In this document: positions 5,924 through 38,483 of the stretch, piece after piece
Layout of the letters: each line of letters starts with the position of its first letter
Position numbering within the stretch: position 1 is the first letter of the stretch
Assembly (NCBI GenBank): GCA_016215155.1
Contig: JACRLQ010000077.1
Span: forward strand, 1 to 55,816
Reading direction: 5' to 3'
DNA: 55,816 nucleotides
From: Nitrospirota bacterium
GTDB taxonomy: Bacteria; Nitrospirota; Thermodesulfovibrionia; Thermodesulfovibrionales; UBA6898
Made by a program: the position numbers and the translations under genes
Notes under the pieces: generated by a model
Told to the model about the DNA's origin: nothing
Database searches by the model: none
What the model saw: the letters and a program-made list of their open reading frames with translations, nothing else

Positions 5924-7807
5924 TTATTTTGCCTTCAGGAACTTCCTTACATCCCCGGTCCTGAGGGTTATCTTATTGGAATCCAGATATTCGAGTATAG
6001 GAAGCGCATATTTTCTTGAGGTATCAAGAAGGTCCCTGAATTCAGCAACGCTCATTTCGTTTTTAGCGGCAAAGAAATCCCTGAGTTTTAAGATCATGGC
6101 GTCATAGGAAGACCTGGTCAAATATATCGACTCGTTTATCCTGACGATCTTGCCGCTTTTGATCAACAGGTTGAGCAGGTCGGAAAGTTTTCTGCCATCG
6201 ACCTTCAGAGCTGAAGAGAGTTCTTCTTTAAGCGGAGGCTGATACCCGTTTTTTTCGAGCAGACCGACGATAGCGGCTTTTGACTGCTCCTCGCCATCAG
6301 ACAGTGAGACGCTGAAAGCTTTCAGGCGGACCATGTCCTTTTCGGCGGAGATGCTGTCTGAATTCGCCAGGATATAATTGAAAAGTTTCTGGTTGATGTC
6401 GAAGTGCGTCCGTACCTCTTCTTTTTGAATACCGGGTTTAATGGGATTTTTCTTGTGGAAATCACGGAGGAAAGAGGCGATATTTTCATGGAGGAGCCTG
6501 TATGAGCCGATATGGATCAAAGTATCGTCGAGCTGTATGACCTGACCCTTTGATTTAAGGGCGTTCACCGCGCCGCGGATGTCCTCAATATCCTGATTTA
6601 TCCATCCGAGGACCGAGTCCGAGGAGATGCCGTATCTGCCGGCCTGTTCGATCTTGACACCGATCTTTTCCTCCAGGCCCCCGGTATGGAGCGTTATTAT
6701 GTCCTCAAGGCCGTCTTTTCTGCTTCTTCTTGCCGGAGACGGGTCCAGGACCAGGCCTCCTCCAAGCGTCTCAAGAGGTGAAAACCGCCTGATGATATAC
6801 CTGTCGCCGGACATGACGACGACCGCGTCGTTTAGGCGGAGCTGGCAATAGGAGTTCTCCAGGGGTTTCAGTTCATCTTTTCCGAACAGGATGACGCGGG
6901 CTATCGTCTCGGAGGTGCCTGAGTAAAAATGGAGGAGGCTTCTGTTTTTCAGGACAGGGACGTTATCAAGAAGACTCAGGTGCGCGTTAATGACCTTTGT
7001 CTGGGAGAAGCCCCCCGGTGTGACGGCAACATCCCCTCGTGTCAAGTCTTCTTTCTCTACGGACTGAAGATTGATCGCTACCCTCTGGCCTGCCGCCGCC
7101 CTGGTGATCGATATGCCGTGGCTATGGAGGCCCCGCACCTTTGTCTTTATGTTGCAGGGCAGGATCTCGATGGTATCGTCGACCGATACCCGGCCGGATA
7201 TCGCCGTGCCGGTTATCACCGTCCCAAAGCCCTTGAGCGTAAAAACCCTGTCTATGGGGAGCCTGAACAGGCCGTCGGAGGACTTTGGTCTTGCCGCAAG
7301 GGCCAGGTCCCGGATCGCGTCCTTCAGCAGTTCGAGATTATGACCGCTTTTCGAGGAAACCGGGATTATCTTTGCTCCGTCAAGAAATGTCCCCTTGACA
7401 AAGCTTTTTACCTCTTCCGTGACCAGGTCGAGCCATTCCGTTTCCACAAGGTCCGACTTTGTGACGGCGATCAGGCCGGACTGGATATTAAGGAGGTTAC
7501 AAATCGCCAGATGCTCCCTGCTCTGGGGCATGATGCCCTCGTCAGCGGCAATGACCATAAGGACAATATCTATCCCCCCGGCCCCCGCCAGCATATTTCT
7601 GACAAGTTTTTCATGCCCCGGCACATCCACGATCCCGACAGAGAGGTCTTTGTCCGGATAAACGAGATCGGCAAACCCGATATCGATCGTGATACCCCTC
7701 AACTTTTCCTCTTTCAGTCTGTCGGGGTCTATGCCGGTCAGGGCCTTGACGAGCGAGCTCTTGCCGTGGTCGATATGCCCGGCCGTCCCCATAATTATAT
7801 GGCGCAT
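5924..7807 (-). CDS. selB: Selenocysteine-specific elongation factor SelB
   Basis: The 627-residue GTPase delivers selenocysteinyl-tRNA to UGA codons that are followed by a SECIS hairpin. The EF-Tu-like G domain starts at residue 1 ([20 protein letters not shown]), with [13 protein letters not shown] near 62 and TKSDL near 117. Beta-barrel domains follow ([19 protein letters not shown] near 190). The C-terminal 250 residues contain the winged-helix repeats that bind the SECIS RNA. Length and layout fit bacterial SelB. Its presence supports use of the in-frame TGA found in the rhodanese gene at 37.6 kb. selA lies nearby on the same strand beyond one small opposing gene; neither selC nor selD is visible in this window. 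Confidence 0.95.
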
Positions 7808-8313: not shown

Positions 8314-9723
8314 TCAGGCGTTATTGAGATACACTGCCAGGGCCGCCACGATATGACCGATCTCGTCGTCCCTGATGGTCCTTGCGTCAAGCAGAAGCGC
8401 ATCACCTTTAATCCTGGCGATAATCGGGGGAGAGCCTTTTCTGAGTCTCCGCTCCAGCTCGTTTAAGGAGAGGTGAGACGGCCTCACCGACACTGAAAAA
8501 GAGGGGAAATCCACCTCGGGCAATGACCCTCCGCCGGCCTTCGAGGAATCACTGACGATCTCAAATCTTTCAGTCTTAATGGTCTTTTTAAGACGTGCGG
8601 CCAGCCTGCCCGCCCGCGACCGGATCTCCTCAGGGGACTGAAGCAGCATCTTCAATACCGGGACGGCCTCCAGGGCGCCTTTGTCGTCCATATAGTCCAT
8701 CAGCACGGCCTCGAAGGCCGCGATCGTGAGCTTGTCCACTCTAAGGGCCCTGGCGAGCGGGTTTTTCTGTATCTTCTCTATAAATTTTTTTCTTCCCGCG
8801 ATGACACCGCCCTGGGGTCCGCCGAGCAGCTTGTCGCCGCTGAAGGTAACGATATCAACACCGGTCTTTACGATCTCCTGAACGGACGGTTCTGAGTGGA
8901 TCCCATGGGCCTTCAGGTCGATCAGACAGCCGCTGCCGAGATCATACATGACCGGGATGCGATGTTTTTTTCCCAGTCCGACGAGCTCTGAGATAGGGAC
9001 GTCTTCCGTGAACCCTATGATTCTGTAATTCGACTGGTGTACTTTTAGAAGCAGGCCGGTATTGTCCGATATTGCGTTTTCGTAGTCATGAAGATGGGTC
9101 TTGTTAGTCGTGCCGACTTCCCTGAGGACCGCGCCGCTTGCCGTCATGACATCGGGGACCCTGAAAGAGCCCCCGATCTCGACCAGCTCGCTCCGTGATA
9201 CGACCACCTCTTTGTCCTTTGCCAGGGTATTGAGGCACAAAAGGACGGCGGCAGCGTTATTGTTGACGATGAACGCGTCCTCGGCGCCGGAGATTTCCTT
9301 CAGGAGTCGTTTTGTATGGCTGTATCTCTTGCCTCTTTTTCCCGCCTCAAGATCGTATTCAAGGTTCGTAAACGACCTGCCAGCCCTGACCACATTTTCG
9401 AGCGCCTTCTCCGACAGTACGGCCCTGCCGAGGTTGGTATGGAGCACAATTCCGGTTGCGTTGATCAGGGGCTTAAGGCTGAACGAGGCGTTTTTGGCTA
9501 TCAGTGACCTGATTTCGCCGACGATGCCGTCGCGGGTGATATCAGCGGGATTTCCCGCCAGGAGGCGCGTCCGCTTCGAGGCCAGGGTGTCCCTGATCGA
9601 CTGGAGCACGAGCCTTCTTGGAAATTCGGCAAGCCAGCCGGTCCCCTCCGGAGTTTTTAAAAGTTCATCCACCGAGGGCAGGCCCGAGAGTTCTGAGTGT
9701 TTTTCTGAGGCCGGGGGTGTCAA
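8314..9723 (-). CDS. selA: L-seryl-tRNA(Sec) selenium transferase
   Basis: The 469-residue PLP enzyme converts seryl-tRNA(Sec) to selenocysteinyl-tRNA(Sec) using selenophosphate. Recognisable family segments are LINATGIVLHTNLGRAVLSE near residue 104, the acceptor region NNNAAAVLLCLNTLAKDKEV, and the PLP-lysine motif TFSGDKLLGGPQGG near 292. Length matches bacterial SelA. The start overlaps the stop of the upstream 98-residue gene by 4 bp, indicating translational coupling. With selB it makes this genome a user of selenocysteine. Confidence 0.96.
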   Translation of the reverse strand: MTPPASEKHSELSGLPSVDELLKTPEGTGWLAEFPRRLVLQSIRDTLASKRTRLLAGNPADITRDGIVGEIRSLIAKNASFSLKPLINATGIVLHTNLGRAVLSEKALENVVRAGRSFTNLEYDLEAGKRGKRYSHTKRLLKEISGAEDAFIVNNNAAAVLLCLNTLAKDKEVVVSRSELVEIGGSFRVPDVMTASGAVLREVGTTNKTHLHDYENAISDNTGLLLKVHQSNYRIIGFTEDVPISELVGLGKKHRIPVMYDLGSGCLIDLKAHGIHSEPSVQEIVKTGVDIVTFSGDKLLGGPQGGVIAGRKKFIEKIQKNPLARALRVDKLTIAAFEAVLMDYMDDKGALEAVPVLKMLLQSPEEIRSRAGRLAARLKKTIKTERFEIVSDSSKAGGGSLPEVDFPSFSVSVRPSHLSLNELERRLRKGSPPIIARIKGDALLLDARTIRDDEIGHIVAALAVYLNNA

Positions 9724-35680: not shown

Positions 35681-37237
35681 ATGGCTGACGATGCATATTC
35701 AAGTACACCGCCGCAGCAACCGAAAGGACTCCAGACGCTCTGGAAGTACGAAGACTGGATGGCGGTCTGGGTAGGTTTCTTCATCATTGCCCTCGTCCTT
35801 GTCCTGAACCAGTATAAGGTGATAGACCTGGCCAGGGTGTCGCCAAACTTCAAGTGGGCAACAGACGGTCAGGTGGCAGACCGTGCGGCAAAATGGAACG
35901 GGGCGATAGATCCGCTCATCGCCGACGCGAAGGCCAGGGAAGAAATGGGGACCGTTAACCGGCTTGCGCAGCTCAAGGAAGCGATCTCTACAGGAAACCG
36001 GAAGGCCATCGAGGAGGCATCAGCCCGTGTCGAGCGCATCGGCGGTGTTCCGGGAGCTCTCGGTAAGGAGATAAACGGCCATGCCAGGGCAGTCCCCGGG
36101 AAGGTATTTCAGGGCGAAAATATCACGAGGGTCACAAAGATCTTCATTGTATTATTCATCGTAGCCTTGATCGGCGCTGTTATCCTCGGCCATAAAGGGG
36201 GCAGGTTTATTGCCGGGTTTCCGATTATCTTCGGCCTTGCTTGGCTGTCCCGCTTCATAGCCGGCAATGCCGGTCCGATAGACTGGGGCGTCGAATACGT
36301 TGTCTTTGCTCTGGCAGTCGGTCTTGTGATCAGCAATCTTTTCACCCTTCCGGAATGGTTTATGGAGGCGGTCCGCACGGAATATTATATCAAGTCCGGC
36401 CTCGTGGTCCTTGGCGCGGGCCTGCTGTTTTTCGAGATCATCCAGGCGGGGTTTCTGGGCATCATCCAGGCCGTGCTTGTGATCTTCGTGGTCTGGTATT
36501 TCTGCTTCTGGCTCTGCCGGAAACTGAAGGTCGACGACGATTTCGGCGCGATACTCGCGAGCGCGGTGTCCATTTGCGGCGTTTCCGCCGCGATCGCTTC
36601 TTGCGGAGCAATCCAGGGCGACAAAAAAAAGCTCTCCTATGTCACCTCTCTGGTCCTTATCGTGGCCGTGCCGATGATGGTGGTTATGCCGTGGGCGGTC
36701 AAGGCCTTCAACATACCTGAAATCGTCGGCGGGGCCTGGCTCGGCGGCACACTCGATACAAGCGGCTCGGTGGTTGCCGCCGGCGCGCTTATCAGTGAAG
36801 CGGCCATGAAGACCGGTGTTATTGTGAAGTTCTCCCAAAACGCCCTGATGGGTTTTGCCGCCTTTGGGCTTGCGATCTGGTGGTCTTTTAAAAAAGGCGC
36901 CGAGACCGGGGAAAAACCGAGCGCGAGTGTTATCTGGGACCGGTTTCCAAAGTTCGTGCTCGGCTTTATCGTCGCTTCCGCTGTCTTTTCTTTCCTGCTT
37001 CATATCGACACGGTGAATGCGACGAAGAGCACCCTTGGGGAACTAAGGACATGGTGGTTTGCCCTGGCGTTTGTATCGATAGGCCTGGAGACCCGTTTTA
37101 CGGACCTGGTCAAGATGGAAGGCGGCCGGCCCGCTCTCGCCTTCATAACGGCACAGGCGTTCAACGTGATCTGGACCCTGATACTTGCTTATCTTCTCTT
37201 TGGCGGCATTCTTTTTGCCGTGCCGGATATAAGGTAA
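35681..37237 (+). CDS. YeiH-type putative sulfate exporter family membrane transporter
   Basis: A 518-residue membrane protein from the ATG at 35681, which has GGAGG 6 bp upstream; the longer frame from a GTG has no such site. About ten membrane helices are visible, with the family segments FGAILASAVSICGVSAAIAS near 295 and LGGTLDTSGSVVAAGALISE near 354. The family (Cons_hypoth698) is annotated as sulfate exporter by analogy. Between the first and second helices (about 60-150) is an extra soluble helical domain rich in charged residues, not part of short YeiH proteins. It is the first gene of a cluster with a selenocysteine rhodanese (50 bp downstream) and a MauE-like protein. Confidence 0.88.
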   Translation: MADDAYSSTPPQQPKGLQTLWKYEDWMAVWVGFFIIALVLVLNQYKVIDLARVSPNFKWATDGQVADRAAKWNGAIDPLIADAKAREEMGTVNRLAQLKEAISTGNRKAIEEASARVERIGGVPGALGKEINGHARAVPGKVFQGENITRVTKIFIVLFIVALIGAVILGHKGGRFIAGFPIIFGLAWLSRFIAGNAGPIDWGVEYVVFALAVGLVISNLFTLPEWFMEAVRTEYYIKSGLVVLGAGLLFFEIIQAGFLGIIQAVLVIFVVWYFCFWLCRKLKVDDDFGAILASAVSICGVSAAIASCGAIQGDKKKLSYVTSLVLIVAVPMMVVMPWAVKAFNIPEIVGGAWLGGTLDTSGSVVAAGALISEAAMKTGVIVKFSQNALMGFAAFGLAIWWSFKKGAETGEKPSASVIWDRFPKFVLGFIVASAVFSFLLHIDTVNATKSTLGELRTWWFALAFVSIGLETRFTDLVKMEGGRPALAFITAQAFNVIWTLILAYLLFGGILFAVPDIR

Positions 37238-37287
37238 TTCCGTTAAATATCGTTGGTGCAAATACGCTATGAAAGGAGGTGACAGAG

Positions 37288-37785
37288 ATGAAAAAGATAC
37301 TGATTCTCGCTTTTGTCATGGTATTTGCCGCAAGTGGATCTCTGGTGTTCGCGGCTGACTTTTCTGCCGGCGCGCTAAAGAAAGTGGAAGAACTCAAGAT
37401 CCTGAGCAGGGACAAGAAGGACATCCCCGAGTCCTTCGGGGGAGTAAAAAAGATCACGGCCGATGAACTCAAAGCGATGATGGACCAGAAGAAGCCGTTT
37501 GTGCTTCTTGATAACCGTGTGCCCGCGGATTACGAGAAGGAGCGCATAGCCGGCGCCAGACGGTTATCCCCTGATGACCTGCTTGAGAAGGGCCTGAAGG
37601 CTGCCGAGGCATTAGGGTTGAAGAAGACGGATACGATTGTTTTCTATTGAAACGGCGTAAAATGCTGGAGGTCATCCGGCGCAATCGTGCTTCTTCAGGA
37701 TGCGGGGTATAAGAATCTTTTATGGTACCGCGAGGGTATGCCTGACTGGATCAAGAAAGGCTATGCTACGGCGGAAGGGAAGTAA
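37288..37785 (+). CDS. Periplasmic rhodanese with selenocysteine at the catalytic position
   Basis: The 165-residue product (in-frame TGA read as Sec121) begins with a signal peptide (MKKILILAFVMVFAASGSLV) and has the rhodanese fold: LLDNRVPADYEKERIAGARR near 75-94, then DTIVFY-U-NGVKCWRSSGA. TGA at 37648-37650 occupies the active-site Cys position of the loop normally written CNGxxCxxS. The frame continues 44 codons to TAA with rhodanese-like sequence (GYKNLLWYREGMPDW). The ATG at 37288 has a GGAGG 8 bp upstream; a GTG at 37279 lies within that site. Rhodaneses transfer sulfane sulfur; a selenol would be a stronger nucleophile. A plain decoder would truncate this gene before the active site. 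selA and selB are in the window. Confidence 0.9.
37651..37690 (+). promoter_or_regulatory. Bacterial SECIS-like hairpin
   Basis: Nineteen to twenty bases after the TGA comes a 6-bp stem GCUGGA (37664-37669) / UCCGGC (37675-37680), with one G-U pair, closing a GGUCA loop. The GGUC apical loop and the spacing resemble the E. coli fdhF SECIS element as I remember it. An additional lower pairing ACG (37652-37654) with CGU (37686-37688) is possible. This is the site SelB is expected to bind. Confidence 0.8.
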
Positions 37786-37799
37786 AAATCTGTCCCGTA

Positions 37800-37834
37800 A
37801 AAAAGGCATGGCGCAATAATCGCCATGCCTTTTT
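37800..37834 (+). terminator. Rho-independent terminator after the selenocysteine rhodanese
   Basis: AAAAAGGCATGGCG and CGCCATGCCTTTTT form a perfect 14-bp inverted repeat around a 7-bp loop, with the T run forming the 3' end. It lies 14 bp after the TAA, independent evidence that translation runs past the TGA to that TAA. Confidence 0.85.
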
Positions 37835-37864: not shown

Positions 37865-38011
37865 ATGAAACGAATTCTGCGTGAAGCCGCTGCCCTAGTC
37901 GCGCTTTCGCTCGCTATGGCGCTCCTGTATAATGCCGCATCCCCGACCGGAATCAAACTCAAACGGACGCCCATGTCTGCAAGTCAGGAACGCGGGCTTC
38001 AGGCCCGATGA
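37865..38011 (+). pseudogene. Short ORF resembling the N-terminus of a membrane-anchored rhodanese
   Basis: A 48-codon ORF (MKRILREAAALVALSLAMAL, then LYNAASPTGIKL) has one membrane helix and a following segment that recalls membrane rhodaneses of deltaproteobacteria. It ends in TGA at 38009-38011 soon after the helix. Its frame is offset by one from the overlapping MauE ORF, so it may be the remnant of a fused or deleted rhodanese. Translating past this TGA gives no rhodanese sequence, so Sec is not proposed here. It could also be a genuine leader peptide. Confidence 0.4.
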
Positions 38012-38483
38012 GGCTGTTTTGGCGTCCGTGATCCTTATCTTGGCCCGGCTATTAATCGGGGGCATCTTTCTGATTTCAGGGCTTGCAAAGATTTCAGATC
38101 CGGCCCGCTTTATCCTGACCCTCAGGGAGTTCCGGCTTTTTCCCGAGGTGATTGTCCCGCTTGCGGCGATATGGCTTCCCTGGCTTGAGGTGCTGCTCGG
38201 ACTTTGTGTCCTGCTGGGGATCCTCCAACGGACATCGGCCCTGCTCCTTGCCTGCCTGAACGCGGGGTTCCTTGCCGCTATCGTCTCCGTGATGGCGCGC
38301 GGGATAGTCGTGGACTGCGGGTGTTTCGGCATGCTGGCCGACATGCTCGGGCTCCCTGATATGGCTGACATGAAGGCGGTAGTCAGGAATGTGGTCATCA
38401 TAGGGCTCTGCCTGCTGATTTTCTTCAGCACAAATAAGGGGTTATCATTGGAGGGCTATATCCTGCGGAGGGAGAAAAATTAG
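37932..38483 (+). CDS. MauE/DoxX-family redox-associated membrane protein
   Basis: A four-helix membrane protein of up to 183 residues. The body starts ASVILILARLLIGGIFLISG and ends with helices near 157; VVDCGCFGML near 119 is the MauE cysteine pair thought to be involved in thiol redox handling. The N-terminal 33 residues (MPHPRPESNSNGRPCLQVRN) are not conserved-looking and overlap the small upstream ORF. Start at the nearer TTG or GTG (about 38019-38028) is therefore possible. Clustering with a periplasmic rhodanese and a sulfur transporter suggests a role in periplasmic sulfur or disulfide chemistry. Confidence 0.85.
   Translation: MPHPRPESNSNGRPCLQVRNAGFRPDEAVLASVILILARLLIGGIFLISGLAKISDPARFILTLREFRLFPEVIVPLAAIWLPWLEVLLGLCVLLGILQRTSALLLACLNAGFLAAIVSVMARGIVVDCGCFGMLADMLGLPDMADMKAVVRNVVIIGLCLLIFFSTNKGLSLEGYILRREKN

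Follow-up and report, generated by a model that had tools for sequence, protein, structure and literature searches.

A rhodanese with selenocysteine predicted in place of its catalytic cysteine, encoded beside a YeiH-type transporter in a Nitrospirota bacterium

Introduction

Does the TGA that interrupts a rhodanese gene in a Nitrospirota bacterium (Thermodesulfovibrionales, UBA6898; GenBank assembly GCA_016215155.1) end translation, or is it read as selenocysteine (Sec), and what would such a residue do at that place? The gene lies on contig JACRLQ010000077.1, positions 1 to 55,816 of which were analyzed as one stretch of 55,816 nucleotides (referred to below as the window), and the source assembly consists of 101 contigs, with an estimated completeness of 100% and 1.8% contamination. 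An original prediction, made from the letters of the window, had proposed a signal-peptide-bearing rhodanese with Sec at the active-site cysteine position, a SECIS hairpin behind the TGA, and a gene cluster shared with a YeiH-type transporter and a MauE-like protein.

A rhodanese frame continuing past an in-frame TGA

The gene and its signals, all on the forward strand, were as follows.

37273..37280, + strand, Shine-Dalgarno sequence AAGGAGGT, a strong ribosome-binding site 5' of the rhodanese ATG (from the sequence)
37288..37785, + strand, predicted Sec-containing single-domain rhodanese, 165 residues (translation, family search, alignment, and predicted fold)
37288..37353, + strand, putative signal peptide MKKILILAFVMVFAASGSLVFA (judged by eye from the translation)
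37648..37650, + strand, TGA for Sec121 at the catalytic-cysteine position (nine genomes have TGA here, 23 genes a Cys codon)
37663..37665, + strand, codon of Cys126, the unvarying second member of the U/C-x4-C pair (family alignment)
37800..37834, + strand, intrinsic terminator with a 14-bp stem and a T-run (folding, -25.3 kcal/mol, z -6.5)

Translation of 37288-37785 passed through a single TGA (U121) and went on for 44 more residues to TAA, giving a product with the N-terminus MKKILILAFVMVFAASGSLVFAADF and the C-terminal part IVFYUNGVKCWRSSGAIVLLQDAGYKNLLWYREGMPDWIKKGYATAEGK. Both the frame staying open for 44 codons and the strong terminator behind it had been predicted, and translation and folding agree on them; the terminator hairpin, placed 3' of the rhodanese TAA, was missed by a consensus terminator scan and revealed by direct folding. 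Standard ORF calling closed the gene at 37650, in line with the expected truncation before the active site, which callers treating TGA as a stop would lose.

With U read as C, the product matched the Pfam Rhodanese family (PF00581; E 8e-17, 62 bits against a gathering threshold of 22.2), and in alignments with solved rhodaneses, e.g., 6mxv, U121 fell on the catalytic Cys, which upholds the proposed rhodanese with TGA at that residue. In an AlphaFold2 model built from the family alignment (mean pLDDT, 90.6), a strand (residues 117-120) is followed directly by U121 and then by a helix (127-138), which is the layout of the rhodanese active-site loop, and the best PDB matches to this model were rhodanese-domain proteins throughout. 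A rhodanese fold is predicted with high confidence for the 165-residue product.

Cysteine and selenocysteine at the TGA column

The U121 column was occupied by Cys or Sec in all 32 aligned rows, as the original prediction implied for a genuine Sec site. TGA stood there in nine genomes of the same class, the window's own included, and TGC or TGT in the remaining 23 homologues; the further Sec-form genomes (G003, G006, G125, G223, G164, G186, G103, and G109) each carried an intact homologue with a single TGA, and the Sec form is described by the nucleotide pattern TAYTGAAAYGGNNNNNNNTGYTGGMRNWSN. An in-frame TGA where homologues have Cys or Sec is one of the marks by which bacterial selenoproteins are recognized. 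The nearest Cys form in the class set was 78% identical to the window protein, while the Sec forms included sequences at 79% and 92%, indicating that the two residues interchange among close relatives. A search across the wider phylum added one more Cys form (G296, 79% identical) and found no Sec form beyond the nine. In a maximum-likelihood tree computed without the residue of the U121 column, six Sec/Cys changes were needed, and a single clade of the nine Sec rows was rejected (p 7e-10). Cys126 was invariant in the family alignment. Between L013 and L014, the 44 codons 3' of the TGA showed 17 synonymous differences and 2 residue changes and, judging from this pattern, evolve as coding sequence.

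A SECIS-like hairpin and the selenocysteine machinery

37663..37681, + strand, SECIS-like hairpin with a 7-bp stem (TGCTGGA/TCCGGCG) and the apical loop GGTCA (folding and comparison)

The loop of this hairpin (TGCTGGA-GGUCA-UCCGGCG) lies 19 nt past the TGA, so that a SECIS-like element with G in its apical loop sits at the distance proper to bacterial selenoprotein genes, as had been claimed. A GGTC(N) apical loop (AGTC in one case) on a 5-7 bp stem, 19 nt past the TGA, was shared by all nine Sec genes and absent from all 23 Cys genes (Fisher, 3.6e-8). Because this criterion was set with the sequences already in view and was applied to related rows, five of the nine Sec rows being close relatives, the value is to be read as a perfect association rather than as an exact probability. 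Moreover, L085 has a C-G pair beside the loop where other genes have A-U, a compensatory change, and CCA is used in all Sec genes of the Ser-Pro type, pairing with UGG. Random synonymous recoding of the Sec genes gave such a hairpin in 4-14% of draws, and the Sec genes had a lower synonymous-recoding z than did the Cys genes (p 6e-4). The single 28-nt hairpin reached z -2.5 against shuffles; the energy of a 50-nt fold was by itself weak (z -1.1), and the weight thus lies on the comparative test. An Rfam search of the window returned no match, which says little about this SECIS.

5924..7807, - strand, selB, Sec-specific elongation factor (TIGR00475, 368.6 bits)
8314..9723, - strand, selA, Sec synthase (TIGR00474, 613.5 bits)

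In addition to these two genes, which had been read correctly from the window, the same genome holds a tRNA-Sec with anticodon TCA on contig 33 (69.5 bits) and, on contig 87, a selD that itself contains Sec. The complete set of selA, selB, selC, and selD, by which a selenoprotein-making bacterium is recognized, is therefore present. SelB was found in all nine Sec-form genomes and also in nearly all Cys-form genomes, and does not separate the two. TGA served as an ordinary stop in 7 of the 30 window ORFs checked, so a genome-wide reassignment of the codon is neither needed nor suggested.

Outside the window, a second tRNA of tRNA-Sec shape was observed (G000:C79:23364-23453, i.e., L002:1501-1590; 53.7 bits against the Rfam tRNA-Sec cutoff of 47). 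It is ∼91 nt long, was assigned the anticodon GCA (Cys) by ARAGORN, and fits the selC* tRNA-Cys class, which is reported from phyla including Nitrospirae (PMC7609411).

Could the TGA nevertheless be a true stop or a disabling mutation, leaving a pseudogene or a truncated protein of 120 residues? Ordinary ORF calling ends there, and other ORFs of the window use TGA as a normal stop; however, the same TGA is common to eight other genomes in an otherwise intact gene, the codons past it are conserved with mostly synonymous changes, sister genes have Cys codons at the position, and the SECIS-like hairpin tracks the TGA, all of which makes this reading very improbable. That a sequencing or assembly error turned TGC or TGT into TGA is scarcely credible: the Cys of the other homologues would fit such an error, but the TGA recurs in nine separate genomes, one of them 92% and one 79% identical, and only alongside the hairpin. 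The recurrence in eight other genomes excludes a read error and confirms that the TGA is genuine. The observation of a Sec-for-Cys rhodanese in 37288-37785 is real, and judging from the comparative evidence the UGA is almost certainly decoded as Sec at the catalytic nucleophile, directed by the SECIS element together with SelA, SelB, SelD, and tRNA-Sec.

The YeiH-type transporter gene as the constant neighbor

35681..37237, + strand, YeiH-type transporter (PF03601, PSE family), extended at the N-terminus by a transmembrane and loop segment, first gene of the pair (Pfam and context)

The transporter scored 153.6 bits against PF03601 (gathering threshold, 24.5), which places it in that family, and stayed under the narrower NCBIfam YeiH cutoff (TIGR00698; 66.6 versus 232.6 bits). 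In each of the 12 close homologues for which the context was read (7 Sec and 5 Cys), a yeiH gene was located directly 5' of the rhodanese, and three more distant homologues had weaker YeiH-like genes nearby. The MauE-like gene (37932-38483), by comparison, lies past the terminator, and among the contexts examined G003 and G164 were the only ones to have it in this place; it was rejected as an operon partner. Thus, the cluster of the original prediction is strongly supported for YeiH but weak for MauE, and is narrowed to the YeiH pair. In the Cys-form relative G216, the region just 5' of yeiH codes for a further rhodanese, a TusA-like protein, and a YedE/TsuA-like transporter.

Several further genes were observed around the rhodanese. 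Directly before the MauE-like gene, a 48-codon ORF (37866-38012, + strand) would encode a single-pass membrane protein (MKRILREAAALVALSLAMALLYNAASPTG...); similar small ORFs precede MauE in G003 and G164, suggesting that a genuine small gene may have gone unannotated here. Among the contexts L099-L108, a TerC-like membrane protein and a cytidylate-kinase-like protein, recognized by eye from sequence, recur 3' of the rhodanese, and others of these contexts have a large cation-ATPase-like protein there, likewise recognized by eye.

Proposed function and competing explanations

In Salmonella, resistance to sulfite depends mainly on YeiH (PMC12880088). In Hyphomicrobium, the yeiH transcript rose 526-fold with thiosulfate, and YeiH has been proposed as a sulfite exporter (PMC11582611). 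The genome under study carries the dissimilatory sulfite reductase gene dsrA, which makes it likely that sulfite is a routine, central metabolite of this bacterium. The explanation that we regard as probable on balance combines Sec decoding, periplasmic sulfur transfer with YeiH, and resolution by Cys126. The rhodanese would be exported to the periplasm, where the Sec121 selenol could take up sulfane sulfur as Se-S- and pass it to, or take it from, sulfite or thiosulfate moved across the membrane by the co-encoded YeiH-type transporter. To this exchange taken by itself we give slightly less than an even chance; the score of this YeiH below the NCBIfam cutoff counts against it. Beside YeiH, the exported rhodanese might combine sulfite and sulfane sulfur into thiosulfate or run the reverse, and Cys126, five residues on from Sec121, would probably resolve the Se-S intermediate by selenenylsulfide formation.

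The loop itself bears on the last step. It reads Y-[U/C]-N-G-x-x-C in this family, rhodaneses of the same class have Sec at the second position (YCRGxGUGLS), and the TsoB loop has it at both (YUDGxxUxRS). This distribution of Sec, over one or both of two fixed positions, is as expected of a redox-active selenenylsulfide/disulfide pair, which argues that the pair may be part of catalysis. We consider it possible, with doubt somewhat outweighing confidence, that the C-x4-C residues are a real redox pair in which evolution has placed Sec at the first position, at the second, or at both, and that the YeiH-linked family provides a natural series of Sec/Cys switches in a periplasmic system that handles sulfite and sulfane sulfur and is coupled to export by YeiH.

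Other functions can be envisaged for the same residues. The Sec121-Cys126 pair might reduce or oxidize partner proteins as a thiol/disulfide redox protein, with no transfer of sulfane sulfur; the invariance of the pair across the family would suit this role, as would the fact that related rhodaneses have Sec at one of the two positions or at both, but the loop retains the catalytic position and fold of a sulfurtransferase and no thioredoxin-like partner was consistently linked in the contexts examined, so that we consider it rather unlikely. Handling of selenium or tellurium oxyanions (selenite/tellurite reduction or resistance) instead of sulfur is a more doubtful proposal still. Selenite/tellurite chemistry would fit the TerC-like genes 3' of the rhodanese in several relatives (recognized by sequence rather than by family search), a weak ExtJ match of the window rhodanese, and a weak ExtH match of the upstream rhodanese in G216, all of which also count against a sulfite role; a YedE/YedF-like pair near the G216 copy can be added. 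However, the ExtJ and ExtH scores are far under their cutoffs, the partner that stays constant is YeiH, for which sulfite sensitivity is the known phenotype (PMC12880088), and the same operon is kept by the Cys versions.

Comparison with known selenocysteine-containing and related rhodaneses

Sec-containing rhodaneses are a known selenoprotein class, as had been stated originally: a 2026 inventory lists five forms with the motifs UxxS, UxxG, CxU, UxxG, and, in TsoB, UxxxxU, and assigns proteins that share a domain but differ in Sec motif to separate subfamilies (PMC13188914). The U-N-G-x-x-C form is absent from this inventory and matches none of its entries exactly, when set apart from the listed forms by their motifs rather than by representative sequences.

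The closest likeness is to TsoB (NF045694; form 5, UxxxxU, PMC13188914), which shares the loop type Y-[U/C]-x-G-x-x-[C/U]-x-R-S and has its first Sec at the Sec121 position. TsoB differs in having two Sec residues and a C-terminal DsbD/thioredoxin part, whereas the window rhodanese has one Sec, no membrane domain, and a YeiH partner; with 54.8 bits against a cutoff of 805, a length of 165 residues, and one Sec, membership in NF045694 was rejected. The YCRGxGUGLS Sec-rhodaneses, whose motif is that of form 1 (UxxS, PMC13188914), are likewise small and exported, of the same class and with the same loop, but their Sec is at the second Cys position while the first stays Cys, opposite to U121; here Sec121 is followed by NGV and the second loop position is Cys126, which does not agree with UxxS. 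Forms 2 and 4 (UxxG) and form 3 (NF041203, rhodanese-related [seleno]protein, CxU) are also rhodanese-domain selenoproteins with Sec motifs unlike UNGxxC: the motif U-N-G-V departs from UxxG, a comparison made by published motif, and the NF041203 score was 43.3 bits against a cutoff of 115.

Other Sec-containing rhodaneses were observed in the own genome and its relatives. L117 (G000:C35:3031-3348 region) encodes a triple-rhodanese of ∼459 residues with Sec in YCGGVTURLS, i.e., at the second loop position, and many relatives have rhodanese ORFs of similar length with one TGA each. L118 (G000:C87:27152-27550), ∼7 kb from selD and with a counterpart in G004, would encode an exported rhodanese of 165 residues whose Sec lies in VVIUMFDKRS, a loop with no second Cys. 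Small rhodaneses with YCTUKEEHSS (CxU) and with YUTUKEEHTS, in which two Sec are one residue apart (UxU), occur in L121 (G016) and L123 (G006), respectively.

Among rhodaneses with no Sec, E. coli PspE resembles the window protein as an exported single-domain thiosulfate sulfurtransferase (PMC2593051, PMC10215317), properties that the window protein would share. The sequence match to the PspE chain 2jtq is weak (E 0.008). To our knowledge, PspE has neither Sec nor a YeiH partner. Far closer are the Cys versions of the YeiH-linked rhodanese itself (L016, L082, L018, L086, and L088), which are up to 78% identical and keep the same operon, with TGC or TGT for TGA and with no SECIS-like hairpin. 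About six natural Sec/Cys exchanges have occurred at a single catalytic position while the operon stayed the same, which makes the benefit of selenium in sulfur transfer testable by comparison of close pairs. What is known, then, is the Sec-rhodanese class and the first-Sec position of TsoB; what is new is that the U-x4-C form stands free, that Sec and Cys have been exchanged repeatedly, and that the gene shares an operon with yeiH. A form with a motif outside the 2026 inventory is hereby added to the Sec-rhodaneses, and a presumably periplasmic rhodanese becomes tied to the widely distributed and poorly understood YeiH transporter.
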